Source of the DNA: Klebsiella michiganensis
Lineage (GTDB): Bacteria; Pseudomonadota; Gammaproteobacteria; Enterobacterales; Enterobacteriaceae
Direction of reading: 5' to 3'
Assembly (NCBI RefSeq): GCF_002925905.1
Contig: NZ_PRDB01000018.1
Location: 1-42,773, forward strand
DNA: 42,773 nucleotides
Shown here one piece after another: positions 14,234 through 39,133 of this stretch (position 1 is its first letter; every line of letters begins with the position of its first letter). A program made the translations under genes and the position numbers. Below the pieces are notes generated by a model. It saw only the letters and a program-made list of their open reading frames with translations, ran no database searches and was not told the origin of the DNA.

Positions 14234-14259
14234 GTATAAGAAATAATGAGATGTGGTTA

Positions 14260-14275
14260 TAATACGTATTAATAC
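14260..14275. promoter_or_regulatory. Candidate operator for the divergent GntR/HutC regulator
   Basis: Two overlapping perfect palindromes sit between the divergent genes: TAATACGTATTA (14260-14271) and GTATTAATAC (14266-14275). The GT...AC ends resemble GntR-family half-sites. A third inverted repeat, GATCT-A-AGATC, is at 14281-14291. A TATAAT (14258-14263, plus) and TATTAT (14264-14259, minus) overlap them, so a bound repressor could block transcription either way. No good -35 elements were found. Confidence 0.45.
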
Positions 14276-14339
14276 AAGTTGATCTAAGATCGCTTCTGAC
14301 TAAACTAGATCCGAACGGAATACGAGAGACGGAACCTGA

Positions 14340-15056: not shown

Positions 15057-15672
15057 AGTAGGGGTTCTGATTCTCACCGGTGATTTAATTTGACTGGGTA
15101 TTCAGAGTATTGGCCATCCGGTCATGAACCTCGCGATCTGGATGATGTTCATCATTCTGTTATCAGTATATGCGGTGAATGTCATTAGCCCTTAATCTTC
15201 TTCGTAAATCATCGTAGCTACGATTGAATGAGCGCTGACAGGGGGATACATGGATTCAGCATACGCGTTTAAGAATTTGGTTTCAGGAACGTCCCCCCGG
15301 AAAGTGAAGGCATGTTTCTTGTCAGGCCCACATGCGAGTCAACAGGGCACTGTTAACATATTGTCCGTCAGGCTGTTCCAGAGTATCTCACTTCGGCAAT
15401 CCGCGCGGCCGATACTGCGCCCACCGGCGCAATACTCAGTGGAAAGTCTGCGTAACGGGCTGAACAGTGTTAGCGTGTGATGCTGCCAGGTCGAAGGGGA
15501 GGAGTGCTGCGCTATAGCTGAATCAGGCTGGGCTCTCTTCCCCCTGATACTGCAAGCATAGGGGTGATCTTATTGAATTGGTTGCACAATCAGTAGATCA
15601 CAAAACGCTATGCTTGTCTTTTTCACCTGCCCATGAATGGGGATTCCTCAGTGCTTCAGCGGGGCTTTTTAC
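15057..15672. other. Intergenic stretch with decayed sequence and one tiny hydrophobic frame
   Basis: About 616 bases with no supported gene. A frame at 15124-15195 encodes a 23-residue hydrophobic peptide (MNLAIWMMFIILLS...); the same frame is open back to 15094, so it may be the end of a lost membrane protein or a very small membrane peptide without a clear ribosome site. A 76-codon frame at 15250-15480 looks random in composition. A structured element at 15553-15623 is listed separately. Confidence 0.4.
15553..15623 (+). other. Nested inverted repeat followed by a T-run (terminator-like or structured RNA)
   Basis: Two nested exact repeats share one axis: CAAGCATAG (15553-15561) with CTATGCTTG (15608-15616), and inside it GTGATCT (15564-15570) with AGATCAC (15595-15601). 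A further ATTG/CAAT pair lies in the loop. The outer arm is followed by TCTTTTT on the plus strand. It can fold to a long interrupted hairpin ending in a U-run. It is 500 bases after the regulator gene, which is far for a simple terminator, and could be the 3' end of a small RNA or a remnant of a mobile repeat. Confidence 0.4.
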
Positions 15673-16218
15673 TTAATCTTTCAACGAAATCCCTTTCATT
15701 GTTTCCCAGATTCTATGCTTATCCTGCTCGTGTAAATTTTTCTGCTGCACGGCGTGCATAAATGCCTCCTGGCCCTGTTCCGTCAGAGGTTGCCCGGACT
15801 TTAATCGTGCCGCCACACTTTGCAGAATACGATGGCTAAGTTGGCCGATTTGCGTCCGGACATCCTGAAGCGGGCGAGGCTGCCAGTCAGTTTCCGGCGC
15901 CGCCAACCAGTCGGCGCGATAGCGGTACTGAATCGCCTTGGCGGCGTCCATCTGCGCCTGAATAAATGGCCTTACGCTCTCGCCTTTTAATCCCAGCGAA
16001 TCAGCATCAGCAGTGGCGCTCTCCAGAACCTTCTTCTCTTGCTGTAGATCTTCAATCGCCTGGTGATGTAGCGCTTTATATCCGGCAACATCTTTCATCA
16101 AGGACAAACGTTCATTGATCAAATTGCCAATCGAAGGGGTTGAAGCAGAAATTGCCGTTGCAGAGAAACTTGCGGCAGCGAGAAGCAACACGGCTGTATA
16201 GAGCTTGTACGGCATCAT
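15673..16218 (-). CDS. aroQ: Secreted monofunctional chorismate mutase (AroQ gamma class)
   Basis: A 181-residue periplasmic chorismate mutase, converting chorismate to prephenate outside the cytosol. A signal peptide with hydrophobic core AVLLLAAASFSATA ends near residue 25. The mature all-helical AroQ pattern follows: IGNLINERLSLMKDVAGYKA (N-terminal helix with the catalytic Arg and Lys), then a QAQMDAAKAIQYRYRADW helix. The length agrees with the exported gamma class rather than the cytosolic P-protein domain. Two adjacent ATGs (16218, 16215) precede the signal peptide. The gene appears monocistronic and unrelated in function to the sulfur genes on both sides. Confidence 0.88.
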   Translation of the reverse strand: MMPYKLYTAVLLLAAASFSATAISASTPSIGNLINERLSLMKDVAGYKALHHQAIEDLQQEKKVLESATADADSLGLKGESVRPFIQAQMDAAKAIQYRYRADWLAAPETDWQPRPLQDVRTQIGQLSHRILQSVAARLKSGQPLTEQGQEAFMHAVQQKNLHEQDKHRIWETMKGISLKD

Positions 16219-16324
16219 AAATCTCCGACGTCGATAAACAGGAAGTCTGTAAAGGCGTTCCCGGTCAGTTGAAGAAACATTTCGCAGAAAGCGTAGCTAG
16301 CGCATTTTACAGTCTTGTGATGAT

Positions 16325-16358
16325 AAAAAAACCGTAAACCCGATCCGGGCTTACGGTT
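16325..16358 (-). terminator. Rho-independent terminator of the cystine-type importer operon
   Basis: Stem AACCGTAA (16330-16337) with TTACGGTT (16351-16358), extended inside by CCCG/CGGG. Read leftward it is followed by a run of seven or more T. It lies about 24 bases beyond the binding-protein stop. Confidence 0.85.
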
Positions 16359-16381
16359 CTCTTTTACCGCGGGGTTAAAAA

Positions 16382-17152
16382 TTACTTCGACACGTCCGCA
16401 CCGAAGTATTTCTGGGAAATACGTTCGTAGGTGCCGTCGGCCTTGATCTCTTCCAGCGCTTTATCAATCGCCGCTTTCAGCTGCGGGTTGTTTTTGCGCA
16501 GCAACACGCCGGATTTCTCCGCGTCAGACTGGGTTGCGACAATTTTCACTGGCGCATCCGGTTTATGTTTTTTGAAGTCGAGGAACGACAGGTTGTCGTT
16601 GATGGTCGCGTCGGCACGACCCTGCACCACTAAATCCACAGATTGGTTAAAGCCATCGGTCGGCACGATATCCGCCCCGTATTTACGCGCGATCTGCGCA
16701 TAGTTACTGGTCAGCGTGTGGGCCGATTTTTTGCCTTTCAGATCTTCAAAACTTTTAATGCTGCTTTTGTCATTGACGATCAGCACCGCTTTAGACGCGA
16801 TATACGGCTCGGAGAAGTCGAATTTCTTCTGGCGTTCTGGCGTAATGCCGACCTGGTTAATCACCACGTCGTAACGGCTCGCATCGACACCGGCGATCAG
16901 GCCGTCCCATTTCCCTTCTACGAACTGCGGGCTCACTTTCAGGCGTTTGGCGATTTCACGGCCAATCTCTACGTCAAAACCCTCCAGCGTGCCGGAAGCA
17001 TTGTGGAAAGTGAACGGCGGATAGGTACCTTCAGTACCGATTTTCAGTACGCCAGCGGACTGAATCTTTGCCAAATCATCCTGCGCCAGCGCTGCGTGGG
17101 CAAAACCAAGCTGCATAATCCCGGCGACGACTAATGTTGCGAGTGCTTTCAT
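16382..17152 (-). CDS. Periplasmic amino-acid (cystine-type) binding protein
   Basis: A 256-residue family-3 solute-binding protein of the TcyA/FliY group. It has a signal peptide ending HAALAQ, then LKIGTEGTYPPFTFHNASGTLEGFDVEIGREIAKRL, the classic amino-acid binding-protein opening, and later QVGITPERQKKFDFSEPYI. ATG 17152 is preferred over 17158 because an AGGG lies eight bases upstream of it. The gene follows the ATPase after 39 bases. Resemblance to cystine importers and the sulfur setting suggest L-cystine or a related diamino acid; another polar amino acid is possible. Confidence 0.85.
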   Translation of the reverse strand: MKALATLVVAGIMQLGFAHAALAQDDLAKIQSAGVLKIGTEGTYPPFTFHNASGTLEGFDVEIGREIAKRLKVSPQFVEGKWDGLIAGVDASRYDVVINQVGITPERQKKFDFSEPYIASKAVLIVNDKSSIKSFEDLKGKKSAHTLTSNYAQIARKYGADIVPTDGFNQSVDLVVQGRADATINDNLSFLDFKKHKPDAPVKIVATQSDAEKSGVLLRKNNPQLKAAIDKALEEIKADGTYERISQKYFGADVSK

Positions 17153-19954: not shown

Positions 19955-20332
19955 AGGGAACCTTAAACATCATGATTTAATAACGGAAATGTTACGTTAA
20001 TTCCTCATAATCAATAGCTAAAAATCAGTTATGCTTTGCAATAAATTCGCTATAAATTTTCCCTCATTGTCCAACTGAACGGTGGCGTTAATGACTCCCT
20101 TTTTCACCCCGCCTCATTTTCGTACCATCGCGAACGAGCCGCTCTGGCGAGGGGGGGACGCATCGATCGTATTCGCCGGGTGCGGTTGATTGTCGAATGT
20201 GTTGATTTAAAAGTATTTACTCTTTTTAGCTATTCAAAGTCTATATGGTTATTTGTTTTTAATGTGGGTAATGCATAAAAGTGAGGTGACGCAAAAAAGA
20301 TTTATCGATGCGATTTTAAGAAGGATATTATT
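19955..20332. promoter_or_regulatory. Divergent intergenic region upstream of the encapsulin operon, with a possible leader frame
   Basis: 378 bases, AT-rich at both ends. A 32-codon frame at 20091-20189 (MTPFFTPPHF... ending FAGCG) has a weak GGTGG upstream; it may be a leader peptide, a gene scrap or chance. Nearest the operon, TTGTTT and TAAAAG with 17 bases between (about 20250-20280) form a weak promoter candidate. The operon start has a good AAGGA ribosome site at 20320-20325. No CysB or other operator was recognised. Confidence 0.35.
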
Positions 20333-21289
20333 ATGCCGGAAGCGGGTGAATTGTATCTCATGCCGAAAAGAGAAAATAACTGGCATTTAAATAATGTCGT
20401 CGATGAACTCCGTCGCGTTCGTCAGGCGTGGCGCGATGAACATGCGAAAAATAATTATCGTAATAAACGTAGTTTACCTTCCCGGGAAAGCGTTAATTCA
20501 GTCACCGATACCTTGATAAAAGTGCTTTATCCGATGCGATTAGGTGATATTGAATTACGCAAAGAGGGCGAAGATTATTACGTCGGTCATTTACTAGGCA
20601 CCTCGCTTGACCGATTGACTGAAGAAGCGGTCCTGGAACTTTATTATCAGTCAGATGAGCAGGATGCGAGTCACACGCTGTCGCAGGAGGCGGTCAGGCG
20701 GGTTCAGCAGTTTGCCAACCGTTTGCCGGTCATCCGCCAGCGTCTCGATCGCGATATCCTCGCGGCGTATCAGGGAGATCCTTCCGCGCGCAGCATGGAT
20801 GAGGTGCTGCTCTGCTATCCGGGAATTCACGCCGTTATGCACTATCGTCTTGCCCACGAGCTGCATCAGCTCGGTCTGCCTCTGCTGGCGCGAATGATAT
20901 CTGAAAAAGCGCACAGCCAGACCGGAATAGATATTCATCCCGGCGCGCAGATTGATGACGGATTCTTTATCGATCACGGAACCGGCGTGGTGATTGGTGA
21001 AACGGCCATCGTCGGTAAACGCGTGCGTATTTACCAGGCGGTTACCCTTGGGGCCAAACGATTTATTGCCGGCGATGACGGGCAGTTGCAAAAAAACTAT
21101 CCTCGCCATCCAATCATTGAAGATGATGTCGTTATTTACGCCGGCGCAACAATATTAGGGCGAATTACTATCGGCGCGCGTTCCAGCATTGGCGGAAATA
21201 TATGGCTGACCCGTGATGTTCCGCCGGATAGTCATGTGCAGCAGGCCCGGGTACAGCAAAAACATTTCAGCGACGGTGACGGAATTTAA
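20333..21289 (+). CDS. Serine O-acetyltransferase (CysE/EpsC-like) of the encapsulin operon
   Basis: A 318-residue acetyltransferase making O-acetylserine from serine and acetyl-CoA. The first 175 residues are helical (YPGIHAVMHYRLAHELHQ is the family pre-barrel segment). A left-handed beta-helix follows with GIDIHPGAQIDDGFFIDHGT, GVVIGETAIVG and ATILGRITIGARSSIGGN; the catalytic His/Asp region DIHPGA is intact. It is longer than E. coli CysE (273 residues), as in plant-like and EpsC-type forms. The chain ends in GDGI, the same last residues that let E. coli CysE dock in the CysK active site, so a complex with the next gene product is plausible. First gene of the operon, 67 bases before the cysteine synthase. 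AAGGA seven bases before ATG fixes the start. Confidence 0.9.
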   Translation: MPEAGELYLMPKRENNWHLNNVVDELRRVRQAWRDEHAKNNYRNKRSLPSRESVNSVTDTLIKVLYPMRLGDIELRKEGEDYYVGHLLGTSLDRLTEEAVLELYYQSDEQDASHTLSQEAVRRVQQFANRLPVIRQRLDRDILAAYQGDPSARSMDEVLLCYPGIHAVMHYRLAHELHQLGLPLLARMISEKAHSQTGIDIHPGAQIDDGFFIDHGTGVVIGETAIVGKRVRIYQAVTLGAKRFIAGDDGQLQKNYPRHPIIEDDVVIYAGATILGRITIGARSSIGGNIWLTRDVPPDSHVQQARVQQKHFSDGDGI

Positions 21290-21356
21290 TTCCGCCGATA
21301 ATAAAATGAAATGACCAGCGCATCGGAATAAATAAAATAACAGCGTGATAATCATT

Positions 21357-22262
21357 ATGAATTTACTTGAAACGATCGGCGCTACGCCGTTAATCACGTT
21401 ACCCTCTTTTGCCGCCGAGCTACCTGGCGTAACGCTGCTGGCAAAAGCAGAGTTTATGAACCCCAGTGGCTCGGTGAAAGACCGCGCGGCGAAAGCGATG
21501 GTGCTGGACGGGATTGCTCGAGGGTTATTAACGCCGGGTAAAACGATTATTGATGCGACCAGCGGTAATACCGGCATTGCCTACGCGATGATTGGCGCGG
21601 CGCTGGGATATCACGTCCGGCTATATCTGCCGCAGAATACCAGCCCGGAGCGCAAACGTATTATTCGTCATTATGGCGCCACGATTGTGGAGACCGATCC
21701 GCTGGAAGGTTCTGACGGCGCCTATATTGAAGTTCAGGCACAAGTTGCTGCGCATCCGGAACGTTATTTTTATCCGGACCAATATAACAACCCCGTCAAT
21801 CCGAATACGCATTTCGCAACGACCGGAAAAGAGATTTGGGAGCAGAGCGGGCAACAGATCACCCATTTTGTTGCCGGTATGGGCACCTCCGGCAGCTTCG
21901 TCGGCACCGCGCGGCGGCTTAAATATGAAAATCCGCGCGTGAAAACGCTCGCCGTACAGCCCGCTTCGCCATTCCACGGCATTGAAGGGACCAAGCATAT
22001 GGGGAGCAGCATTAAACCTGGCATTCTCGACGAAACCCTGTTCGACGACGTTATTCCCGTCACCACCGAGGAGGCTTATGCGAGCACGCGGCGCCTCGCC
22101 CGGCGGGACGGCATTTTTGTCGGCATTTCCTCTGGCGCTAATGTCGCCGCCGCCGCGCGGCTGGCCCGCACGCTGCCGGCGGGATCGGTGGTGGTCACGC
22201 TGCTGTGTGATGTCGGCTCGCGTTATCTGACTGACGCTTTCTGGAATGAAACCCATGATTGA
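21357..22262 (+). CDS. Cysteine synthase, CysM/CysK family
   Basis: A 301-residue PLP enzyme that replaces the acetyl (or phosphate) group of activated serine with sulfide or a carrier-bound thiocarboxylate. The PLP lysine is Lys41 in NPSGSVKDRAA. The substrate loop is TSGNTGIAYA and the phosphate-binding loop GMGTSGSFVGT. A GTG 12 bases upstream is in frame, but ATG 21357 fits the family N-terminus (MNLLETIGATPLI). It overlaps the protease gene by eight bases. Next to a MoaD/ThiS-like carrier and a JAMM protease it most likely uses carrier-COSH as the sulfur donor, like mycobacterial CysM. The operon's own acetyltransferase argues for O-acetylserine rather than O-phosphoserine. Confidence 0.9.
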   Translation: MNLLETIGATPLITLPSFAAELPGVTLLAKAEFMNPSGSVKDRAAKAMVLDGIARGLLTPGKTIIDATSGNTGIAYAMIGAALGYHVRLYLPQNTSPERKRIIRHYGATIVETDPLEGSDGAYIEVQAQVAAHPERYFYPDQYNNPVNPNTHFATTGKEIWEQSGQQITHFVAGMGTSGSFVGTARRLKYENPRVKTLAVQPASPFHGIEGTKHMGSSIKPGILDETLFDDVIPVTTEEAYASTRRLARRDGIFVGISSGANVAAAARLARTLPAGSVVVTLLCDVGSRYLTDAFWNETHD

Positions 22263-22683
22263 ATTGACTCAAGAAATCACCAGGCTGATTGGCGCTGAAG
22301 GGGAAAAGGCCTATCCCAACGAATGCTGCGGTGCGCTCTTTGGCCACTTTTCCGCGCAGGGCGATGCCCGCGTGACGGCGATTTTCCCCATTGTTAATGC
22401 TCGCGAGTCGGAGGAGCAGTACCACCGTTTTGTCATCACCGCCGATGACTCCCTGCGGGCGGAACGCGCTGCGCTGGCTCAGGATGTGGACGTGATCGGC
22501 TATTACCATTCGCACCCCGATCACCCGGCCATTCCATCTGAATTTGATCGCGAACATGCGCTGCCGTTTTACGCCTATATCATCGTGGCGGTCGCGCAGC
22601 GCCAGGCGGGGGCACTGACCAGCTGGCGGCTGACCCAGGACCGCCAGCGCTTTTTGCAGGAGGACGTGCAGATCGTTTTATAA
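22255..22683 (+). CDS. JAMM/MPN (M67) metalloprotease, Mec-like
   Basis: A 142-residue zinc protease of the Mov34/MPN/PAD-1 clan. The full JAMM motif is present: Glu23, then H85-S-H87-P, Ser95 and Asp98 in the spacing HxHPx6SxxD. Mycobacterial Mec cuts cysteine from the carrier CysO-Cys adduct; QbsD and HcyD trim C-terminal residues from sulfur carriers to expose Gly-Gly. Both jobs are possible here because the next gene's carrier has a five-residue tail. I use ATG 22255, which has GGAA at fair distance; ATG 22246 would add three residues. It overlaps the cysteine synthase gene end. Confidence 0.9.
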   Translation: MIELTQEITRLIGAEGEKAYPNECCGALFGHFSAQGDARVTAIFPIVNARESEEQYHRFVITADDSLRAERAALAQDVDVIGYYHSHPDHPAIPSEFDREHALPFYAYIIVAVAQRQAGALTSWRLTQDRQRFLQEDVQIVL

Positions 22684-22742
22684 CGTGAATAACGGGCACA
22701 ACGTTGCCGGAAACCAGAACAAAACACGGAGAGATTACCACT

Positions 22743-23033
22743 ATGGCATCGACATTACTGATTCCCACTGCGCTACGCGCCTTCACCGACGGTCAGGGGA
22801 AAGTGATCCTCGAAGGCCACACCGTTGGGCAGCTGGTGGCAGCGCTGGCGGAGCGATTTCCTGACATTCAGCCGCATCTGTATGACGATACGGGCGCGCT
22901 GCGCAGTTTCATCAATCTGTACGTGGGAGAGAACAACATTAAAACCACCGGCGGGCTGGAGACTCCGGTTAGCGATGGGGCGGAAGTGCTGCTGGTTCCC
23001 GCCATTGCCGGCGGCGTCGGGAAGGCGATATGA
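22743..23033 (+). CDS. MoaD/ThiS-type sulfur carrier protein with masked Gly-Gly
   Basis: A 96-residue beta-grasp protein resembling mycobacterial CysO. Family features are the LRAFTDGQ opening, the GHTVGQLVAALAERFP helix, FINLYVGENNI, and DGAEVLLVPAIAGG near the end. Unlike CysO, MoaD or ThiS, which end in Gly-Gly, the diglycine here is residues 90-91 and is followed by VGKAI. It would have to be trimmed before adenylation by the adjacent E1 enzyme. A GGAGAG lies ahead of ATG 22743. Its stop overlaps the next gene's ATG in ATGA, so carrier and activating enzyme are translationally coupled. Confidence 0.9.
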   Translation: MASTLLIPTALRAFTDGQGKVILEGHTVGQLVAALAERFPDIQPHLYDDTGALRSFINLYVGENNIKTTGGLETPVSDGAEVLLVPAIAGGVGKAI

Positions 23034-24205
23034 GCAGACCGAGCATTATCCCGGATGACCGTCTGACGGAGCTGACGCATGCGGAAATTGCCCGCTATAG
23101 CCGCCATCTGCTGCTGCCGGAAGTCGGGCTTGAGGGGCAAAAGCGGCTGAAGGCCGCCCGCGTATTGCTTATCGGCACCGGCGGGTTGGGGGCGCCGGTG
23201 GCGCTTTATCTGGCTGCGGCGGGGGTCGGTAAGCTGGGGATTGTCGATTTTGATTTTGTCGACGTCTCCAACTTGCAAAGGCAGATCATTCACAGCACCA
23301 AAGATATCAACCGACCCAAAGTGGCTTCGGCGAAAGACAAGATTAAAGCCATCAACCCCGAGATACAGGTGGTGACCTATAACACCACCCTGAGCAGCAA
23401 AAACGCGCTCGAAATTATTGGTGAATATGACCTCGTCGTCGACGGTACGGATAATTATCCCACCCGTTATCTGATCAACGACGCCTGCGTTTTGCTGGGT
23501 AAACCGCTGGTCTATGGCTCCATTTTTCAGTTCGAAGGGCAGGCCAGCGTCTTTTATGCCGGGGAAGGACCGTGCTACCGGTGTCTTTATCCCGAGCCCC
23601 CGCCGCCGGGGCTGGTACCTTCCTGTGCCGAAGGCGGCGTTGTCGGCGTGCTGCCGGGGATTATCGGCACCATTCAGGCGGCGGAAGCGATCAAACTTAT
23701 CGTCGGCGGCAGCGAGAGCCTGATTGGCCGCCTGTTGCTCTTCGATGTGTGGCAGATGAAGCAACGCGAGCTGCGGCTGGAGAGGGCTCCCGACTGCCCG
23801 GTATGCGGTGAGCATCCCTCGATTCATGCGCTCATCGACTACGAGGAGTTTTGCGGGCTGAAACCTGATGAAGCAGAAGTTCCGGTTGAAAGCGTCACGG
23901 CGCTTGAGCTTCACGCCTGGATAGAGGAGGGAAGACCCCTGCAGCTGATCGACATTCGTGAACCCCACGAAAGGGCGATTGCAAAATTTCCGCAGGCAAA
24001 AGTGATGCCGCTGGGCCAGATAGTCAGACGTATCGGTGAATTCGACCCGACGGTCGATGCGGTATTTCTGTGCAAGATAGGGCAGCGCAGTATTTTCGCC
24101 ATTCGGGCACTCCAGCGCGCAGGTTATCAGGGGCGCGTGATGAATTTAAAAGATGGCCTAAACGCCTGGGCACGGGATGTCGATACCCGTTTGCCGCAGT
24201 ACTAA
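23030..24205 (+). CDS. MoeZ-like E1 enzyme: ThiF/MoeB adenylyltransferase fused to rhodanese
   Basis: A 391-residue two-domain protein. Residues 1-260 are the ThiF/MoeB domain: ATP loop GTGGLG (49-54), NLQRQ (81-85), DGTDN (138-142), catalytic-type Cys199 in SCAEGG, and the zinc pairs C182-x2-C185 and C256-x2-C259. Residues 290-391 are a rhodanese domain with active Cys348 in the six-residue loop CKIGQR. It should adenylate the carrier's C-terminal glycine and then pass a persulfide sulfur to make the thiocarboxylate, as MoeZ does for CysO. The loop departs from the usual CRxGxR at its second residue. A persulfide donor is at hand in the encapsulated desulfurase two genes on. Confidence 0.92.
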   Translation: MSRPSIIPDDRLTELTHAEIARYSRHLLLPEVGLEGQKRLKAARVLLIGTGGLGAPVALYLAAAGVGKLGIVDFDFVDVSNLQRQIIHSTKDINRPKVASAKDKIKAINPEIQVVTYNTTLSSKNALEIIGEYDLVVDGTDNYPTRYLINDACVLLGKPLVYGSIFQFEGQASVFYAGEGPCYRCLYPEPPPPGLVPSCAEGGVVGVLPGIIGTIQAAEAIKLIVGGSESLIGRLLLFDVWQMKQRELRLERAPDCPVCGEHPSIHALIDYEEFCGLKPDEAEVPVESVTALELHAWIEEGRPLQLIDIREPHERAIAKFPQAKVMPLGQIVRRIGEFDPTVDAVFLCKIGQRSIFAIRALQRAGYQGRVMNLKDGLNAWARDVDTRLPQY

Positions 24206-24242
24206 CCTTCAGCTCCACTCTTTCAAACACTAAGGAATCATT

Positions 24243-25187
24243 ATGGCAGAACAAAAAGGCATTAATGCACTGGGGCGTGAAGCCGCGTATCAGTTAGCGA
24301 ACGTGACCAAAACGGCACCGCAATTTGCGGCAATCACCCCGCGCTGGGTCAGCCGTTTTCTCGATTATAAGGGCCTGGAATCGGGGATTTACCGGGTGAA
24401 CAAGGTCGTGGAGGGGGAGACGCCGCTGGATGTATTATGCAGCCAGGATCCGTCGCGCGTTGAAATACCCCAGGGCTATATCGAGTATCAGACCACGCCG
24501 CGTGAATACCAGCTGGATTCGATTACGACCATTATAAACGTCGATACCAAAATCGCCGATCTCTACAGCTCGCCCTACGACCAGGCCTCAGAGCAAATCG
24601 CGCTGGCGATTGAAAGCCTGCGCGAGCGCCAGGAAAGTCAGCTGATCAATAACGATGAATATGGATTGCTGAAAAATATCGACGACTCGCAGCGTATTCA
24701 GACCCGCAATGGCCGTCCAACGCCGGATGACCTGGATGAGCTGTTGTCCAAAGTCTGGAAGGAGCCCTCCTTCTTTCTGGCCCATCCGCGCGCGATTGCC
24801 GCATTTCAGCGTGAGGCCACGCGACGCGGCGTGCCGCCGGTCACCGTGAATTTGCATGGGGGCACGTTTATCCTGTGGCGCGGTATTCCGCTGATCCCTT
24901 CCGACAAGCTGTTTGTCGATGGTCTGAAAAACCCGAAAGGCCAGGGCGGAAAAACCAATATCCTGTTGATTCGTTCCGGTGAAAGCAAACGCGGCGTGCT
25001 GGGACTTTATCAGGAAGGGCTGCCAAACGAACAGTCTCGCGGTTTGTCGGTGCGCTTCCGGGGGATCGACGATAACGGCGTGGCTTCCTATTTACTCTCA
25101 CTTTATTGCTCCGCTGCGATCCTGGCCGATGACGCCATTGCCGTGCTGGAGGATGTTGAAGTGGGTGAATATTATGACTACGAGTAA
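24243..25187 (+). CDS. Family 2A encapsulin shell protein (SrpI-like)
   Basis: A 314-residue HK97-fold shell protein. The sequence matches the Family 2A group: opening INALGREAAYQLANVTKTAP, then TPRWVSRFLDYKGLESGIYRVNKV, the YIEYQTTPREYQLDSITTIINVDT block, and the late ERQESQLINNDEYGLL. There is no inserted cyclic-nucleotide domain, which excludes Family 2B, and no phage genes lie nearby. In Synechococcus SrpI and the Acinetobacter homologue, 60 subunits form a shell of about 25 nm around a cysteine desulfurase, and the latter stores elemental sulfur. AAGGA six bases before ATG gives strong translation, fitting a shell protein. The stop overlaps the cargo start by 14 bases. Confidence 0.93.
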   Translation: MAEQKGINALGREAAYQLANVTKTAPQFAAITPRWVSRFLDYKGLESGIYRVNKVVEGETPLDVLCSQDPSRVEIPQGYIEYQTTPREYQLDSITTIINVDTKIADLYSSPYDQASEQIALAIESLRERQESQLINNDEYGLLKNIDDSQRIQTRNGRPTPDDLDELLSKVWKEPSFFLAHPRAIAAFQREATRRGVPPVTVNLHGGTFILWRGIPLIPSDKLFVDGLKNPKGQGGKTNILLIRSGESKRGVLGLYQEGLPNEQSRGLSVRFRGIDDNGVASYLLSLYCSAAILADDAIAVLEDVEVGEYYDYE

Positions 25188-26652
25188 TTTATTCACGCTT
25201 CCCTATGCGCCCGGCGGATGGGCGGGCGACGCGCCCTCCGCGCGTGATTATGGTCTGCCCGACGCGCGCGATCTGCAGGGGCTGCCTGACGATGCGCCCG
25301 CACGCCCGCGTGCGACCGAAGCCGCTTACGCGCCGCGGGTGCTGCCATTGGGCCAGGAGAGCAGGGCGGATATAGCGCCTCGCGGATTCGCGCCTTTACC
25401 CTCTTCCAGCGTAAAAACGGCGCCGCCGGCGCGGGTTGGACAGATCCCGGTGGAACGCATCCGCGCTGATTTTCCGATCCTTAGCGAACAGGTGGACGGA
25501 CATCCGCTGGTGTGGCTGGATAATGCCGCGACGACCCAGCGCCCGAAGCAGGTTATCGATCGTATCAGCCACTATTATTTACATGAGAATTCGAACGTTC
25601 ATCGGGCGGCGCATACGCTTGCCGCTCGTTCCACCGATGCTTATGAAGCCGCGCGTGAGAAAGTGTCGCGTTTTATCGGCGCCCGCGGCCCGGAAAATAT
25701 CATCTTCGTGCGCGGTACCACGGAAGGGCTCAATCTGATAGCGCACAGCTACGTGAAGCCGCTATTACGACCGGGGGATGAAATTATCCTGACGTTGCTT
25801 GAGCATCACGCCAATATTGTACCGTGGCAGCTTATTGCCCAGGAAACGGGCGCGACGATCCGCGTTGCGCCGGTTGATGAGCACGGTCAGCTGATCGTTG
25901 AGGAATATATCCGGTTGTTCAACGATAAGACCCGCTTTGTCTCCGCGACCCACGTTTCTAACGCGCTGGGTACCGTCACGCCGGTTCAGGAGCTGGTGCA
26001 GATCGCCCATCGTTTTGGGGTGCGCATTGCCATCGACGGCGCGCAGTCTATTTCGCATATCCCGACCAACGTGACGGCGCTGGATGCCGATTTCTTCGTC
26101 TTCTCCGGCCATAAAATTTTTGGGCCGACCGGGATCGGCGTGGTCTATGGCAAGCAGGAGGTGCTGGAAGAGGCGCGCCCTTACCAGGGCGGCGGGAACA
26201 TGATTGCCGACGTGACCTTTGAACTGACGCGCTATCAGCCCTCGCCGAATAAGTTTGAGGCAGGGACGGGCAATATTGCCGATGCCGTCGGGCTGGGGGC
26301 GGCTATCGATTATGTCACCTCGCTGGGGATAGAAAACATTGCGCAGTATGAGCACGCCTTACTGGAGTATGGCATCGCGAAGCTGTCGGCTATTCCGGGC
26401 CTGACGCTGGTCGGTACCGCGGCGAACAAAACCAGCGTCTTATCTTTCGTGCTGGCGGGTCATGAAAATGCAGCCGTGGGGCGCTATCTCAGTCAGGTCG
26501 GCATTGCCGTGCGATCCGGACATCACTGCGCGCAACCGATCCTGCGCCATTTTGGTTATGAGAGTACCGTCCGGCCTTCGCTGGCTTTTTATAATACGCC
26601 GCAGGAAATTGATTTTCTCGCAGAGCATGTCGCAAGGTTTGCTTCGCGATAG
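25174..26652 (+). CDS. SufS-type cysteine desulfurase with N-terminal encapsulin-cargo extension
   Basis: A 492-residue protein. Residues 1-92 are rich in Pro, Ala, Gly and charged residues and look disordered; a GLPD motif occurs twice (27-30, 36-39). Residues from IRADFPIL (about 96) onward are a group II cysteine desulfurase: PLP Lys314 in FSGHKIFGPTG and catalytic Cys452 in RSGHHCAQP. It splits cysteine into alanine and protein-bound persulfide sulfur. In Family 2A systems this extension directs the enzyme into the shell; here it is shorter than the roughly 200-residue cyanobacterial form. ATG 25174 lies inside the encapsulin gene; an earlier in-frame start would read through encapsulin coding DNA and is rejected. 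Last gene of the operon. Confidence 0.93.
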   Translation: MTTSNLFTLPYAPGGWAGDAPSARDYGLPDARDLQGLPDDAPARPRATEAAYAPRVLPLGQESRADIAPRGFAPLPSSSVKTAPPARVGQIPVERIRADFPILSEQVDGHPLVWLDNAATTQRPKQVIDRISHYYLHENSNVHRAAHTLAARSTDAYEAAREKVSRFIGARGPENIIFVRGTTEGLNLIAHSYVKPLLRPGDEIILTLLEHHANIVPWQLIAQETGATIRVAPVDEHGQLIVEEYIRLFNDKTRFVSATHVSNALGTVTPVQELVQIAHRFGVRIAIDGAQSISHIPTNVTALDADFFVFSGHKIFGPTGIGVVYGKQEVLEEARPYQGGGNMIADVTFELTRYQPSPNKFEAGTGNIADAVGLGAAIDYVTSLGIENIAQYEHALLEYGIAKLSAIPGLTLVGTAANKTSVLSFVLAGHENAAVGRYLSQVGIAVRSGHHCAQPILRHFGYESTVRPSLAFYNTPQEIDFLAEHVARFASR

Positions 26653-26695
26653 CGGTGTCAAGCGCGCCAGGGATGGACCATGACGACAATCCCAC

Positions 26696-26725
26696 AAGCC
26701 CGCTGATTTCCCCGCGGGCTTTTAT
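26696..26725 (+). terminator. Rho-independent terminator of the encapsulin operon
   Basis: Perfect 8-bp stem AAGCCCGC (26696-26703) with GCGGGCTT (26714-26721), ten-base loop, followed by TTATC. It lies 44 bases after the desulfurase stop. Confidence 0.8.
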
Positions 26726-26736
26726 CATATCGTGGT
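26722..26736 (+). repeat. Left copy of a 15-base direct repeat flanking the importer/sulfo-lyase cluster
   Basis: TTATCATATCGTGGT occurs here and again, same orientation, at 35415-35429. The copies lie just outside the two ends of the 8.7-kb block 26843-35378. The match stops exactly at 15 bases on both sides. Confidence 0.5.
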
Positions 26737-26772: not shown

Positions 26773-26842
26773 GCGAGCCAGCCTGAAAGGCGCCAGCGGA
26801 CGTTTTAATGGGGGGGCAGTAGCTGCCTGAATGAATGTGGGG

Positions 26843-27709
26843 TTAACGCTGCATCCCCCAGCGCTTAATTGTGATCTTTTCCAGACTGGCGAATACGATG
26901 CCTTCCACCAGCAGACCAATCGCGATGACCGTTAACAGCCCTGCAAATACCCGGTCGGTGAACAGCTCATTGCGATTCTGGAATATATACCAGCCCAGAC
27001 CCCCTTCGCCGCTGGAGGCGCCGAATACCAGTTCGGCGGCAATCAGCGTTCGCCAGGCGAAAGCCCAGCCTATTTTCAAACCGGAAAGGATGGCGGGCAA
27101 CGATGCCGGAATAAGAATCGTGATCACATAGCGTGGCCCACGGAGGCCATAGTTGCGCCCGGCCATGCGCAGCGTTTCCGGCACGCTGCTAAATCCGGAC
27201 CAGGTATTCAGAGCGATGGGCCACATGACGGAATGTATCAGTACAAATATCAGGCTGGCATTTCCCAGGCCAAACCACAGCAGAGCCAGCGGCAGCAGCG
27301 CAATTGCCGGCAGTGGATTGAGCATCGCGGTTAATGTGCTGAGCAGATCGCGACCAAACTGCGTGGTCACTGCCAGGGCGCTGGCAATCAGCGCCAGCGC
27401 GCTGCCCGCCAGATATCCTTTCAGTAGGGTACTGAGTGAATTGACGATTTTTTCCGGCAGTTCGCCATTGCGCAGGTCTTCACTGAACGCCTGCAGCGTC
27501 TGAAATACCCCGGGCAGCATCAGATCGTTTTGCTGTATTCGCGCGGCGATCTCCCATAGCGCCAGCACCAGGGCGACAATCACAGACTTACGCAGCCATG
27601 CCTGATTCCACAGGCGCTGGCTTAAGGGTAGCGGCGTTTCTACCGGCAGATTACGTAGCGGCGGTAATTCGCGTTCGAATTCAGGACGAATGTACGGTGG
27701 CTGGGACAT
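26843..27709 (-). CDS. ABC importer permease, SsuC/TauC family
   Basis: A 288-residue permease with a 40-residue cytosolic N-terminus, then about six membrane segments and the EAA loop AGRNYGLRGPRYVITILIPASLP. The start at 27709 (MSQPPYIRPEF) overlaps the end of the ATPase gene by 29 bases; the longer frame above lies on the ATPase gene. It is the last gene of the leftward unit binding protein - ATPase - permease, convergent with the encapsulin operon. Likely substrates are sulfonates or sulfate esters, from family and setting only. Confidence 0.88.
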   Translation of the reverse strand: MSQPPYIRPEFERELPPLRNLPVETPLPLSQRLWNQAWLRKSVIVALVLALWEIAARIQQNDLMLPGVFQTLQAFSEDLRNGELPEKIVNSLSTLLKGYLAGSALALIASALAVTTQFGRDLLSTLTAMLNPLPAIALLPLALLWFGLGNASLIFVLIHSVMWPIALNTWSGFSSVPETLRMAGRNYGLRGPRYVITILIPASLPAILSGLKIGWAFAWRTLIAAELVFGASSGEGGLGWYIFQNRNELFTDRVFAGLLTVIAIGLLVEGIVFASLEKITIKRWGMQR

Positions 27710-28523
27710 ACGCTGGCTCCTCGCCGGATGAGTGAGACGGACCGTTGCCGGTCGTCGGGAATAACAGATGGTGAATATGACGAGCCGCGTGTTGAAACGC
27801 CTCGCTGCCGAAATCATTAAGCGTGAACTGATGACAATTAAGCTCTGCCCGGACGCGTCCTGGATGCGGCGAAAGCACCACAATACGGCTGCCTACGACC
27901 AGCGCCTCTTCAATCGAGTGGGTGACGAAAAGCAGCGTAAAGCGCTCTTCTTCCCAGAGCGTCAGCAACTCTTCCTGCATCGTGCGCCGCGTCAGCGCAT
28001 CCAGGGCGGCGAAGGGTTCGTCCATCAGCAGGATGCGCGGTTTCATCGCCAGCGCACGGGCGATGGCGACGCGCTGCTTCATGCCGCCGGAGAGCGTATG
28101 GGGCATCGCGTCAGCAAATTCCGCCAGACCGACTTTGTGAAGAAAATGCAGCGCCGTCTCTTTTGCCTGTGAACGGCTGGCTTTGCGGCTGGCGAGCAGA
28201 GGAAACATGACGTTTTCCAGCACCGTTTTCCACGGCGGCAACTGGTCGAACTCCTGGAATACCATCATGCGGTCCGGAGCGGGGGCGCTAACTGGCGTCC
28301 CTGCAAGCGAAATTTGACCGCTGCGCGGGGCAATAAAACCGCCTGCGGCTTTCAACAGGCTCGATTTTCCGCAGCCTGAGGGGCCAAGCAGAATAAAGCG
28401 GTCCCCAGGCCAGACATCAAAACTGACATCGTGCGTCGCGCGTACCCGGCGTTCACGCGTGCGGTATTCAATATCGACATGGCTGACCTGCAGCAGCGGG
28501 CCATCAATTTGCTGATTGACCAT
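27681..28523 (-). CDS. ABC importer ATPase, SsuB/TauB family
   Basis: A 280-residue ATPase with Walker A GPSGCGKSS, signature LSGGMKQRVAIARAL, Walker B ILLMDEPFAALD and H-loop FVTHSIEEALVVG. Two ATGs are adjacent; the second (28523) has GGAGG five bases upstream and is chosen. A C-terminal tail of about 40 residues (GNGPSHSSGEEP...) goes beyond the usual domain and is encoded by DNA that also starts the permease gene. Confidence 0.9.
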   Translation of the reverse strand: MVNQQIDGPLLQVSHVDIEYRTRERRVRATHDVSFDVWPGDRFILLGPSGCGKSSLLKAAGGFIAPRSGQISLAGTPVSAPAPDRMMVFQEFDQLPPWKTVLENVMFPLLASRKASRSQAKETALHFLHKVGLAEFADAMPHTLSGGMKQRVAIARALAMKPRILLMDEPFAALDALTRRTMQEELLTLWEEERFTLLFVTHSIEEALVVGSRIVVLSPHPGRVRAELNCHQFTLNDFGSEAFQHAARHIHHLLFPTTGNGPSHSSGEEPAYVPATVHSS

Positions 28524-28544
28524 CATAGCCTCCAGTATCGCGGT

Positions 28545-29552
28545 TTAGCTGCCGGGGTTTTCCCATGCTTCGTTAAAAAAATAATCTTTCCACGAGTCGG
28601 CCTTATTTTTCAGTATCCCAAGCTCATGGAGTTTTTCGGCATATACGCCAGTACGTTCAGGGGAAACCGTAAAGCTTATTTCGGGATCGTTAACAATTTT
28701 TTGTACCAGCGGTAAAGGCAGCCGCGATTTCTCAACGCGAATGTAAGTTTCGGCAGCGGCATTTTTGTCACGGTTAATAATACTTGCGGCTTCGCTGAGC
28801 GCGCGATAAAACGCTTTATAGGTTCTGGGGTTTTCATCATGGAATTTCTGGGTGGTATAGAGAACATTAAAGGTTGCCTGTCCCCCCAGTACGTCATAGG
28901 AGCTGAGCACTTTATGCACGTTTTTATGTTCCAGCGCCTGATACTGGAAGGGCGGGCTTGAGAAGTGGGTGGTAATCTCCGAGCCGCCGGCAATTAATGC
29001 CGCGCTGGCGTCCGGATGCGGTAAACTGACGCTAATTTTATCGAAGCGTTTGAAGTCCCCGTCACCATATAATTTCGCGGTCTCGATTTGTAATGTACGA
29101 GACTGAAAACCGACGCCTGCTGCCGGTACGGCGATCCGATCTTTTGCGGACAGATCTTTAATGCTTTTTACCGCCGGATTATTACTCAACAAATAATTGG
29201 GCATCGACCCCAGCGAGGCAATCGCTTTCACATTTTGCTTACCTTTGGTGCGATCCCATAGGGTGAGTACGGGAGGAACACCCGCTGACGCAACGTCCAG
29301 AGCGCCAGAGAGCAGAGCCTCATTCATCCCGGTCACTCCGGAAATGGTGCGCCACTCTACTTTTATATCCAGCCCCTCTTTCTGACCCTCTTTTTCGATA
29401 AGCTGTTGGTCACGTACCACATCAAGAATTAAATAGCCGATGCCAAATTGCTGCGCGATACTAATGTTTCCTTCCGCTAATGCCGGCTGGCTTATCCCGC
29501 CCAGGGCGGAAAGCGCCAGCGTACAGGCGAGTATTCTGCTTGTTTTATTCAT
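28545..29552 (-). CDS. Periplasmic binding protein, NitT/TauT type
   Basis: A 335-residue solute-binding protein. The signal peptide ends at ALA/EGN (about residue 27). Features include ISIAQQFGIGYLILDVVRDQQLIEKEG, the GMNEALLSGALDVASAGVPP pocket segment and KDRIAVPAAGVGFQS. Proteins with this QQFGIGYL opening often serve in uptake of sulfonates or sulfate esters in enteric accessory clusters; the ligand here is not proven. First gene of the leftward operon and divergent from the Ldh-family gene. Confidence 0.87.
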   Translation of the reverse strand: MNKTSRILACTLALSALGGISQPALAEGNISIAQQFGIGYLILDVVRDQQLIEKEGQKEGLDIKVEWRTISGVTGMNEALLSGALDVASAGVPPVLTLWDRTKGKQNVKAIASLGSMPNYLLSNNPAVKSIKDLSAKDRIAVPAAGVGFQSRTLQIETAKLYGDGDFKRFDKISVSLPHPDASAALIAGGSEITTHFSSPPFQYQALEHKNVHKVLSSYDVLGGQATFNVLYTTQKFHDENPRTYKAFYRALSEAASIINRDKNAAAETYIRVEKSRLPLPLVQKIVNDPEISFTVSPERTGVYAEKLHELGILKNKADSWKDYFFNEAWENPGS

Positions 29553-29794
29553 TTCAGTTTCCCAGAAAGGTGTTTCTCAGCCAAAAATCATGGGCAGAGG
29601 CGAGCGGGAAAGGAAGTGATTTAAATGAAAATGAATATCAGAGAAATGAATAACGATATTTGTGGCTTGTTATTTACCAGGTGGAAAAGCTTAGTCATTA
29701 TTCATGTTTAGGTCATAAATATATTCTCAGTATAGTCGGGTTCATCTTTTAAATAGCCCTTGTCAATGTAGGGGCAGTCATTGCGAGCCTCATC
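29553..29794. promoter_or_regulatory. Divergent intergenic region with plus-strand promoter candidate
   Basis: 242 bases, AT-rich. A TATAGT at 29731-29736 is a good -10 for the rightward Ldh-family gene, which starts 59 bases beyond it; no good -35 lies at 16-18 bases. No regulator gene or obvious operator adjoins, so control by a global sulfur regulator would be expected. Confidence 0.35.
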
Positions 29795-30817
29795 ATGCCT
29801 TTATTTTCGGATCATCACTTACGTTCGCTTTTGCAGCGCCATCTGGTAAGGGTTGGCACCGGACCTGATATCGCTCAAAAGGTCGCGGATAACCTTGTCG
29901 AGGCCTCACTAAAAGGCCACGACTCTCATGGCGTGACCCTGTTACCGCGCTATATTCGGGCCATTCTGGCAGGGGATTTGAACCCTGGCGCCACGCTCAC
30001 CATGTTGTCTGATGCCGGACCGATCGTCTCTTTTGATGGCGGACACGGCTTCGGCCAGGCGTTGGGCGAACAGGCTATGGCCGTGGGTATTGAGCGTGCG
30101 CGCGAGTTTGGGGTGGCAATAATCGGATTGTCTAATACCCACCATCTTGGACGAATCGGCGCATGGGCGGAACAGGCGGCGGACGCCGGACTGGTCTCGC
30201 TCCATTTTGCCAACGTGGCAGCGCCGTCGGTCGTACTGCCTTTCGATGGACTCGGTGCCCGACTCGGCACAAATCCTTTTTGTGTCGGGGTACCGCTCGC
30301 GAACCGGCCCCCGGTTATCCTTGATTTCGCCACCAGCGCCATAGCAGGCAATAAAGCGCGCATCGCATGGAATGAAGGGCGAGCCATCCCTGAAGGATGT
30401 GCGGTAGATGCGAACGGACAACCCACCACCGACCCTGCGGTATTAATGACGGAACCGTTCGGTGCCTTGCTGCCTTTTGGCGGGCATAAAGGCGCAGGAT
30501 TGTCGCTGATTTGTAGTCTACTCGGCGCTGCGCTGACCGGCGGCGAAACCGAAAGCCAGCAAATTCCGCCACGTGCCGGAATCATCAACAATATGCTGTC
30601 GATTTTATTTGATCCTGCGCGGCTGGGGGCGCAGGAGAGTTACCAGCAGGCGCTATTAGCGCAGGTGGACTGGGTGCGTAGCGGGCAGGAAGGGCGCAAT
30701 GTGCAGATCCCCGGAGAGCCGGAATTGCGCGCGTATACCCGCCGCCAGCAAGAGGGTATCTGGATCGATGAGGTGAGCTGGCAGGCGTTTGTCGCCCTGG
30801 AAGCATTAAATACCTGA
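29795..30817 (+). CDS. Malate/L-lactate (Ldh-family) dehydrogenase, sulfolactate dehydrogenase-like
   Basis: A 340-residue NAD(P)-dependent oxidoreductase of the Ldh_2 family (AllD, YlbC, ComC relatives). Family motifs include GHDSHGVTLLPRY near residue 42, GHGFGQALG, NTHHLGRIGAWAEQAA (with the catalytic His), GTNPFCVGVP, DFATSAIAGNK and FGGHKGAGLSL. The family includes (R)-sulfolactate dehydrogenase ComC as well as ureidoglycolate and lactate enzymes. The neighbouring sulfo-lyase-like gene and Tau-type importer make a 2-hydroxy sulfonate the best guess. It has its own terminator candidate, so it may be a separate transcript. Confidence 0.85.
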   Translation: MPLFSDHHLRSLLQRHLVRVGTGPDIAQKVADNLVEASLKGHDSHGVTLLPRYIRAILAGDLNPGATLTMLSDAGPIVSFDGGHGFGQALGEQAMAVGIERAREFGVAIIGLSNTHHLGRIGAWAEQAADAGLVSLHFANVAAPSVVLPFDGLGARLGTNPFCVGVPLANRPPVILDFATSAIAGNKARIAWNEGRAIPEGCAVDANGQPTTDPAVLMTEPFGALLPFGGHKGAGLSLICSLLGAALTGGETESQQIPPRAGIINNMLSILFDPARLGAQESYQQALLAQVDWVRSGQEGRNVQIPGEPELRAYTRRQQEGIWIDEVSWQAFVALEALNT

Positions 30818-30886
30818 GGTTGTCTGCCTGGTTAAATACGTCTTTGGGTTATCTGTTCAAAGCGTTGGTATTATGTCCGGTTAATT

Positions 30887-30924
30887 AGTGCTGATGAACA
30901 AAATAAATAAAAGCACTATTTTTT
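30887..30924 (+). terminator. Candidate terminator after the Ldh-family gene
   Basis: TAGTGCT (30886-30892) pairs with AGCACTA (30912-30918), 19-base loop, followed directly by a run of six T. It lies about 70 bases after the stop. The long AT-rich loop makes the call moderate. Confidence 0.5.
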
Positions 30925-31069
30925 ATCTTTTTTCCTCATAACCATAGCTGAAAAACTTGGTAAGTCATCAGTGAGAAAATAAATATAGTCATACTTAATA
31001 TTGTATGAACCTTTTATCCTCGCGGCCAAATTTTAATTTGCTGCGTAGTCATTTTTTACAGGAGTTATT

Positions 31070-32083
31070 ATGCATCTGGCGCGTTTCCCCCGGCTTCATT
31101 TTGGCCACTTCCCGACCCCTCTGGAGCCTCTCACGCAGCTTTCACGATTGCTGGAGGGGCCAAATATCTGGATAAAACGAGACGATTGCACAGGCCTCGC
31201 CACTGGCGGCAATAAAACCCGCAAACTTGAGTTTTTGCTGGGCGATGCCCAGGCAAAACAGGCGGATATTATCATTACCCAGGGCGCCACGCAGTCTAAC
31301 CATGTGCGTCAGACCGTCGCGGCGGCAGCCAGACTGGGTCTGGAAACGCATATTTTTCTCGAACAACGCGTCACGACGCTGGGTGATGAGTATCAGCAAT
31401 CCGGCAATGTGCTGCTGGACGGTTTGCTCGGGGGCAAAATTATCGCTCATCTTCCCGGCGGTACGGATATGCAGCAGGCAATGGAACAACACGCGGAAAG
31501 CCTGCGAGCCAGGGGCCACACCCCTTATGTCATCCCCGGTGGAGGCTCGAACGCTATCGGCGCGCTGGGCTACGTCTCCTGCGCGGAAGAACTGCTTTGG
31601 CAGTCCAGCCAGCTACGGCTGCGCATCGATCATATCGTTCATGCCACCGGTAGCGCAGGTACACAGGCTGGCCTGATTGCGGGCTTAACTGCCACGCACA
31701 GCGGTATTCCTCTCCTCGGGATTAGCGTCCGCGCTCCGCGCGAAAAACAGGAGCACAACGTCTGGCGTCTGGCGCAGCAGACGCGGGAACTGCTCGGTGT
31801 ACCGGGTGAATTGCCGCGTGAGGCGGTGGTGGCGAACGGTGATTATGTCGGCGAAGGCTATGGCTTGCCCACCGAAGGGATGCTTGAGGCGCTGCAGTTG
31901 CTGGCGCAGCACGAGGGGATTCTGCTCGACCCCGTCTATTCCGGAAAAGGCATGGCCGGATTGATTGATCTGATCCGTAAAGGTCATTTCCGCAGGGATG
32001 AGAATGTGGTGTTTATCCATACGGGGGGAAGCGCAGGTCTGTTTGGCTACCGTCAGGTCATCGCCGATTCTTTGCCATCATGA
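31070..32083 (+). CDS. PLP-dependent D-cysteine desulfhydrase / L-cysteate sulfo-lyase (DcyD/CuyA family)
   Basis: A 337-residue PLP enzyme of the ACC deaminase/D-cysteine desulfhydrase family. The PLP lysine is Lys49 in [29 protein letters not shown] and [23 protein letters not shown] are family hallmarks. DcyD splits D-cysteine to pyruvate, ammonia and sulfide; CuyA splits cysteate to pyruvate, ammonia and sulfite. The two cannot be told apart by eye. A racemase overlapping its stop (ATGA) and a Tau-type importer favour an amino sulfonate or D-amino-acid substrate brought in from outside. Confidence 0.86.
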
Positions 32084-32799: not shown

Positions 32800-32827
32800 A
32801 AACGTTGTTATTTAAAGGATAAATTAA

Positions 32828-37544: not shown

Positions 37545-37584
37545 ACGGCGTGCGTTATTTAATGGATTAACCGGGAATATGCTG

Positions 37585-39120: not shown

Positions 39121-39133
39121 GGCGGGGGCAGGG

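Follow-up and report, generated by a model that had tools for sequence, protein, structure and literature searches.

Seven genes on the forward strand of a Klebsiella michiganensis contig, within positions 20333-26652, encode a serine O-acetyltransferase (SAT), a CysM-type cysteine synthase, a JAMM-type metalloprotease, a ubiquitin-like sulfur carrier, an E1 adenylyltransferase with a rhodanese domain, a Family 2A encapsulin shell protein, and a cysteine desulfurase. The window, i.e. the whole stretch of DNA analyzed, comprises positions 1-42773 (42,773 nucleotides) of contig 13 of a 6.19 Mb genome. The encapsulin module and the carrier-based route to cysteine are both individually known, and their combination appears to be new. 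We propose that the seven-gene unit may act as a sulfur store with its own predicted carrier route back to cysteine, a reading to which we give an even chance. A first-pass annotation, made from the sequence alone, had named the seven genes and treated them as one unit. Both claims were borne out: each gene had the expected family match, in the expected place and on the same strand, gene order was conserved across loci, and the block was common to congeners without its flanks.

Distribution, gene order and clade structure

Species genomes were scanned with the window shell, yielding 519 relatives, and the best 80 loci by likeness to that shell were examined; because this likeness governed their selection, proportions within the set are not representative of Family 2A as a whole. 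The first-pass annotation had proposed searching genomes for co-occurrence of the seven families. The carrier was present in 72 of the 80 loci and all seven genes in 30, one of them L004 from Raoultella terrigena NBRC 14941, many loci being cut by contig ends. Where at least 4 kb was available on both sides (42 loci), the desulfurase was found at all 42, the carrier and the E1 at 41 each, the JAMM protease at 40, SAT at 32, CysM at 26, and the complete set at 19. The order JAMM-carrier-E1-shell-desulfurase was retained in 57 of the 63 loci having all four shell partners, and CysM stood directly before the JAMM gene in 46 of the 47 loci with both. By record label the loci fell into eleven phyla (Pseudomonadota, Bacillota, Spirochaetota, Synergistota, Thermodesulfobacteriota, Fibrobacterota, Deferribacterota, Lentisphaerota, Planctomycetota, Elusimicrobiota, and Myxococcota), of which single labels may be wrong since the records are mostly metagenome bins. 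The linkage of shell and carrier pathway in one operon, as first claimed, is upheld by this conserved order, whereas its apparent status as an enterobacterial oddity is not.

Operon DNA was also compared with that of congeners. Positions 20202-26648 matched at 89% in one (G014, L116) and positions 20202-26659 at 91% in another (G009, L118), the flanks being without match in both, and in the third (G008, L117) the match extended from 20200 to 26729 and a downstream block (26838-32892) matched as well. The match was confined to the operon block, with differing flanks, in two of the three congeners carrying the operon, and these alignments indicate that the block moves with unrelated flanks. Neither the genomes nor the plasmids of E. 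coli gave a megablast match to the operon. An accidental neighborhood would fit the patchy occurrence within the genus, where the shell gene was found in four of 20 genomes, but chance adjacency is refuted by the conserved order, and the block common to congeners without its flanks argues in the same direction; the probability left to this explanation is negligible.

The shell protein fits Family 2A. Its score with the Family 2B model (380.6 bits) was under the cut-off of 400, and it is an SrpI-like protein of the HK97 type without the cNMP-binding insert, with 8t6r_A (1.7e-115) and SrpI (6x8m_A, 2.1e-111) as the nearest solved chains. Residues F272 and Y283 align with F262 and Y273 of SrpI, which are located near cargo density (PMC8049743), and a coarse scan recovered the F-x10-Y pattern in 85 of the 96 shells. 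The neighboring desulfurase scored 787.9 bits with the cargo desulfurase model NF041166, just below its cut-off of 800, and has an N-terminal extension of approximately 90 residues, matches to solved desulfurases (nearest chain 8kg1_A, 6e-176) beginning at about residue 90. Its RxGHxCxQP motif was present in 90 of 94 copies, some of which are cut off. The system resembles that of SrpI from Synechococcus elongatus (6X8M) in shell family, in the adjoining gene for a desulfurase with an N-terminal extension, and in the cargo-facing phenylalanine and tyrosine. It differs from SrpI and other ordinary 2A systems in that a whole carrier pathway has been added and in that the shell belongs to its own clade, with a loop longer by 8 residues.

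Evidence for this clade came in part from two surveys of 398 Pseudomonadota genomes, whose shared handles suggest the same sample and in which at most 12 candidates were scored per genome. Matches above the 2A cut-off occurred in 17 of the 398 genomes. Removal of the window genome and of four loci (L100-L103) that passed the cut-off but resemble 2B shells, with open frames of 471-520 aa, left 12 ordinary 2A systems. These had a desulfurase in 12 of 12 cases, SAT near the shell in 11, and a CysM-like gene in one (L114), while the carrier, the E1, and the JAMM protease were found in none of the 12 (fetched stretches of 8 to 20 kb). In the shell tree the 12 ordinary shells constitute one side of a branch with support of 100/100, indicating that the carrier-linked systems are a distinct encapsulin clade and not the rule for Family 2A. 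All 80 carrier-clade shells that were measured had a shell loop of 13 residues, versus 5-6 in all 10 ordinary ones measured; it was scored by length, an earlier sequence motif having proven too narrow (53 of 84), and six of the 96 shell rows could not be measured. The longer loop of the window shell corresponds to an 8-residue gap in both solved 2A shells aligned. A CysO-like carrier (E 1e-10 or better) was detected in 75 of the 398 genomes, mostly in one family (f55), a Pseudomonadota family of small genomes in which such carriers occur nearly throughout the sample without a 2A shell.

Trees of the individual proteins placed the enterobacterial loci differently. In the SAT tree, eight enterobacterial rows grouped with 11 ordinary Pseudomonadota rows, apart from 42 other carrier-locus rows (100/100), whereas nine enterobacterial rows fell on the carrier side in the shell and desulfurase trees. 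In the enterobacteria SAT is located upstream of the shell, as it is in 10 of 11 ordinary loci having SAT; in 40 of the 50 carrier loci with a SAT match it is located downstream. The simplest reading would be that the enterobacterial operon is chimeric, a carrier-shell-desulfurase block having been joined to an ordinary Pseudomonadota-type SAT. The trees omit L117 and L118, whose coordinates coincide with those of L003 and L004, and sequences of fewer than 220 (SAT), 290 (shell), and 380 (desulfurase) residues.

Carrier precursors, E1 fusions and the JAMM protease

The best solved match of the window carrier was Mycobacterium tuberculosis CysO (3dwg_C), aligned as far as the di-glycine, and its predicted model resembled that chain with a template modeling (TM) score of 0.81, model confidence being low for the tail. 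Identification as a MoaD-like carrier by the first-pass annotation was correct (PF02597, 3dwg_C), but the five residues past the di-glycine had been overlooked. A 5-residue tail of varying sequence was present in all seven enterobacterial loci (L003-L009). The di-glycine was kept in 72 of 72 carriers, being final in 2, followed by 1-69 extra residues in 48, and continuing in frame into the E1 in 22. A carrier with such a tail or run-on would need cleavage, likely by the JAMM protease, and the carrier is on this ground likely a precursor with the JAMM protease as its predicted cutter. The HxHP-x6/7-SxxD motif of the protease was intact in 69 of 69 copies from the loci and the window. The E1, for which ThiF, Uba4, and MoeB were the nearest solved chains, retained the rhodanese CxxGxRS motif in 77 of 78 copies and the crossover cysteine in 74 of 78.

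Cleavage of this kind has precedents, as MoaX requires cutting at its Gly-Gly (PMC4326299) and a Deinococcus JAMM protease cleaves a MoaD-MoaE fusion to a C-terminal Gly (PMC8832034). These proteins are alike in that a ubiquitin-like carrier is synthesized as part of a fusion and released by a cut after Gly-Gly or Gly. Their fusion partner is MoaE, while here the partner is the carrier's own E1 and the cutting is predicted. In addition, Iyer et al. 2006 (PMC1779556) proposed that JAB proteases free fused carriers, and described a ubiquitin-like domain fronting some ThiF proteins that was called distinct from ThiS.

Ala-Gly-Gly was invariant in 19 aligned carrier-E1 fusions (19 of 22; L057, L058, and L067, which are near-copies or cut off, were omitted). 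All 19 had ThiF and rhodanese matches and 13 had a ThiS match (E 0.001). In a modeled fusion, residues 90-124, from the di-glycine onward, had confidence below 50, as would be expected of a flexible linker. Among the 120 listed of 7985 relatives in the protein collection, ThiS, ThiF, and rhodanese matches occurred together in 116, and a pattern scan detected the di-glycine-region motif in 118. One sequence (P0278, 631 aa) unites a JAMM domain with its metal motif, carrier, E1, and rhodanese in a single chain. Several carrier-E1 fusions are named MoeB in public records, for which a correction of annotation is offered here. Furthermore, the specificity of JAMM cleavage could be assayed cleanly with E1-fused carriers, and this step is relevant to how ubiquitin processing arose.

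On the shell tree the fused label requires a single change (22 rows, 99/99), and the same holds for the desulfurase tree (22 rows, 100/99); both trees also omit eight loci without a carrier found. These trees point to linked inheritance, in that carrier architecture, fused or separate, tracks the shell and the desulfurase.

Tails were commoner and longer among relatives of the window carrier than among actinobacterial CysO relatives, and they are not unique to the former. Among the 120 listed of 204 window-carrier relatives, 115 had a tail, three had none, and two had no motif. Among the 120 listed of 7998 actinobacterial CysO relatives, 68 had a tail (two residues in 60) and 52 had none, one of the 68 (P0131) being an artefact of the motif scan. 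The solved CysO chain (3DWG) terminates at the di-glycine, while approximately half of these listed actinobacterial relatives (P0121-P0240) have short tails, ending in AR, MR or SR, suggesting that carriers of that group may often be processed as well. These actinobacterial tails ruled out the use of a tail as a marker of the shell link.

At one locus (L080), genes resembling TusA, thioredoxin, ThiS, MoeB, JAMM, and thioredoxin reductase adjoin the shell (13689-16656, by eye). The names of these extra genes were read from the sequence, with the E1 and the JAMM protease also recovered as search matches. The second, ThiS-like carrier likewise has residues past its glycines (GGGSNGIF).

Proposed sulfur route and rival explanations

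The carrier pathway has a counterpart in mycobacteria, where MoeZR charges CysO, CysM forms CysO-cysteine, and Mec frees cysteine, a desulfurase being named as the likely sulfur donor to MoeZR (PMC3227635). Carrier, JAMM protease, E1-rhodanese, and cysteine synthase are all present here, while the carrier is tailed or fused to the E1, CysM is of another type, and a shell and desulfurase are added; the presence of SAT suggests O-acetylserine rather than O-phosphoserine as the substrate. The same four genes (carrier, E1-rhodanese, JAB, and cysteine synthase) were predicted as an operon in class 4c of Iyer et al. 2006 (PMC1779556); the passages describing it mention neither a shell nor an E1-rhodanese with a fused carrier, and the word 'desulfurase' is absent from the main text. 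On the encapsulin side, SrpI loads the desulfurase via an N-terminal targeting sequence, SrpI levels rise in Synechococcus on sulfate starvation, and the desulfurase is more active when encapsulated (PMC8049743). A part in sulfur storage has been ascribed to desulfurase encapsulins (PMC12407261). SAT and rhodaneses are the most enriched extras in ordinary 2A operons (Andreas and Giessen 2021, PMC8346489), and the words JAB, ubiquitin, ThiF, molybdopterin, and sulfur carrier are absent from the main text of that paper. No paper joining an encapsulin and the carrier pathway was found in the literature searched, and supplementary neighborhood tables of PMC8049743 and PMC8346489 may list the families. 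The first-pass statement that the combination had not been described as one system holds for that literature, but its framing as the property of an enterobacterium does not survive the eleven phyla.

In the proposed route, the desulfurase, judging from its family, would enter the shell via its N-terminal extension and strip sulfur from cysteine, with the sulfur accumulating inside. Sulfur storage in an Acinetobacter encapsulin has reportedly been the subject of a 2024 paper, and to our knowledge the exit of sulfur from Family 2A encapsulins is an open question. The JAMM protease is predicted to trim the five-residue tail, or to cut the carrier off the E1 in relatives, leaving a di-glycine end. 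The E1 would adenylate this di-glycine and the sulfane-loaded rhodanese would convert the carrier to a thiocarboxylate, with sulfur drawn from the desulfurase or the shell. SAT would supply O-acetylserine, CysM would join the carrier sulfur to it, and the JAMM protease would free cysteine and carrier, giving the protease two roles, maturation and release. We infer that shell sulfur may pass in this manner to the rhodanese, the carrier, and then cysteine. What the sequences themselves establish is the identity of the genes, their motifs and kept order, the clades, and the tails and fusions of the carrier. A fuller version would be a self-contained sulfur economy, in which an encapsulin banks cysteine sulfur, the carrier is made as a precursor or fused to its E1 and released by the JAMM protease, charging takes place at the clade-specific shell loop, and the sulfur is rewritten into cysteine; this version is tentative, and we lean somewhat against it. 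If true, this would be the first case of an encapsulin linked to a ubiquitin-like pathway, and one recorded under eleven phylum labels. Moreover, if these loci do wire the shell to the carrier pathway, the way back of the sulfur becomes testable with named proteins.

Several observations weigh against the sulfur store and against the closed cycle suggested by the first-pass annotation. The main weakness is that stripping sulfur from cysteine and then rebuilding cysteine brings no gain unless the two are separated in time, and it is for this reason that a store is proposed. Growth of Synechococcus was unaffected by knockouts of the genes for shell and desulfurase (PMC8049743). No loading motif common to the desulfurase N-terminal extensions was found, a GLP-x-[ED]-like pattern occurring in 45 of 88. 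No CysM was detected at 16 of the 42 loci flanked by 4 kb or more on each side, and the CysM step is not universal; this and the knockout result are the main evidence against the proposal. The solved chains nearest to the window CysM (2jc3 and 2bhs, O-acetylserine sulfhydrylase B) are presumably of the enterobacterial type, and the mycobacterial CysO partner (3dwg) was not among the best 60 of 136 chains matching it. The tails of actinobacterial CysO relatives count here as well, and the window genome was the only one of the 398 to have both a carrier and a 2A match. One locus (L060) has a carrier-clade shell and a desulfurase with no match to the other five genes within 8 kb, possibly representing a reduced system. 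Lastly, the host has further CysE-like, CysM-like, and SufS-like proteins (named by likeness). Since CysM was not found at these 16 loci, each module occurs without the other in nearly all sampled Pseudomonadota having one, and the host has such proteins, the operon is probably accessory and not the sole route to cysteine.

Shell and carrier pathway could instead serve separate, parallel functions in sulfur metabolism from a common promoter. The shell would take excess cysteine sulfur, thiols would release it as sulfide, and ordinary cysteine synthases would use that sulfide with no carrier, while the carrier route would independently produce cysteine from thiosulfate or other sulfane sulfur acquired through the rhodanese domain. 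Such independence is suggested by the occurrence of the modules apart (12 of 12 ordinary 2A loci without the carrier and 74 of 75 sampled carrier genomes without a 2A match), by the loci at which CysM was not found, and by the position of the operon among cystine-, sulfonate-, and taurine-type importers. However, the fused or separate state of the carrier follows the shell and desulfurase trees, with 22 of 22 rows in one clade each, and the order beside the shell is kept over records of eleven phyla. Tree-linked architecture and kept order are more than mere co-regulation needs, and we regard parallel jobs as rather unlikely, if the rival to be taken most seriously.

The carrier might also be a ubiquitin-like modifier that the E1 attaches to the shell or desulfurase and the JAMM protease removes, thereby controlling shell opening or cargo activity. 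The top NCBIfam models were indeed SAMP1 for the carrier (52.6 bits, cut-off 60) and desampylase for the protease (63.8 bits, cut-off 130), with SAMP1 also among the fold matches, but both scores were under their cut-offs and CysO was the best match in both sequence and fold. The placement of CysM immediately before the JAMM gene and the kept rhodanese cysteine also speak against modification, which we consider improbable. A similarly low probability is given to a thiocarboxylate destined for another product, such as homocysteine or a sulfur-containing cofactor, with cysteine merely the sulfur source. Several Lachnospiraceae loci without a CysM match would agree with this, as would L080 with its second ThiS-like carrier, E1, and JAMM protease next to TusA-, thioredoxin-, and thioredoxin reductase-like genes; nevertheless, the presence of CysM in the window and at 26 of 42 well-flanked loci, and of SAT at 32 of 42, points to cysteine as the product.

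Features of the locus and genomic setting

Table 1. Features of the operon and a neighboring sulfo-lyase gene, in window coordinates.
Feature	Position	Strand	Basis
AT-rich leader, conserved; likely promoter region	20202..20332	+	congener match starts 20200-20202 and continues into operon; alignment n=4
Serine O-acetyltransferase (SAT, EpsC-like), 318 aa	20333..21289	+	NF041874 170.4 bits (cut-off 150)
CysM-type cysteine synthase	21345..22262	+	PF00291; TIGR01138 347 bits, below cut-off 394
JAMM/Mov34-type metalloprotease (Mec-like), 145 aa	22246..22683	+	PF14464; 2kcq_A 1.2e-30
CysO/MoaD-like sulfur carrier precursor, 96 aa, end ...LVPAIAGG-VGKAI	22743..23033	+	PF02597; 3dwg_C 1.1e-15
Codons of carrier tail VGKAI (5 residues past di-glycine), into E1 start codon	23016..23030	+	sequence
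MoeZ-like E1 adenylyltransferase with C-terminal rhodanese domain, 391 aa	23030..24205	+	PF00899, PF00581
Family 2A encapsulin shell protein, 314 aa	24243..25187	+	NF041162 490.9 bits (cut-off 380); PF19307
Codons of longer clade-specific shell loop (residues 223-235)	24909..24947	+	loop-length comparison
SufS-type cysteine desulfurase, predicted cargo, 492 aa	25174..26652	+	TIGR01979 529.8 bits (cut-off 475.1)
Terminator-like hairpin	26696..26721	+	RNA fold -14.5 kcal/mol, z -3.34
CuyA-type D-cysteate sulfo-lyase	31070..32083		NF052482 560 bits (cut-off 450)

Start codons were refined from the sequence to ATG 22743 for the carrier, ATG 25174 for the desulfurase, and GTG 21345 or ATG 21357 for CysM. 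CysM and JAMM genes overlap by 17 bases, carrier and E1 by 4, and shell and desulfurase by 14, with the remaining intergenic gaps amounting to 55-67, 59, and 37 bases. A promoter scan of the leader detected no sigma-70-like site, and Rfam at gathering scores, applied to sets of 7, 9, and 5 sources, yielded no T-box, SAM or other riboswitch, just two tRNAs. The hairpin behind the desulfurase was missed by a simple terminator scan because its loop exceeds the limit of that scan.

The operon is located between cystine-type and sulfonate-type importers (best matches, below curated cut-offs). Further out are an NtaA/DmoA-type monooxygenase (469 bits, cut-off 280) and an SsuA-family protein (168 bits, cut-off 163.5), as well as taurine-importer-like and SfnB-like (oxidoreductase) genes below cut-offs. 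In the congeners, a Cbl gene (655 bits, cut-off 491) lies upstream of the operon in L117, and a Nac gene (574 bits, cut-off 309) and a Cbl-like gene lie upstream in L118, the corresponding stretch being downstream in L116. This setting is consistent with a role in sulfur limitation and is no proof of one. Window positions 5757-35378 resemble an organosulfur-scavenging region, several matches being under cut-offs. After the CuyA-type sulfo-lyase gene come a gene that by eye resembles a racemase and an importer of the taurine type, and this region likely represents a D-cysteate utilization cluster. Positions 37579-41139 contain what we take, by eye, to be type VI secretion-like parts.

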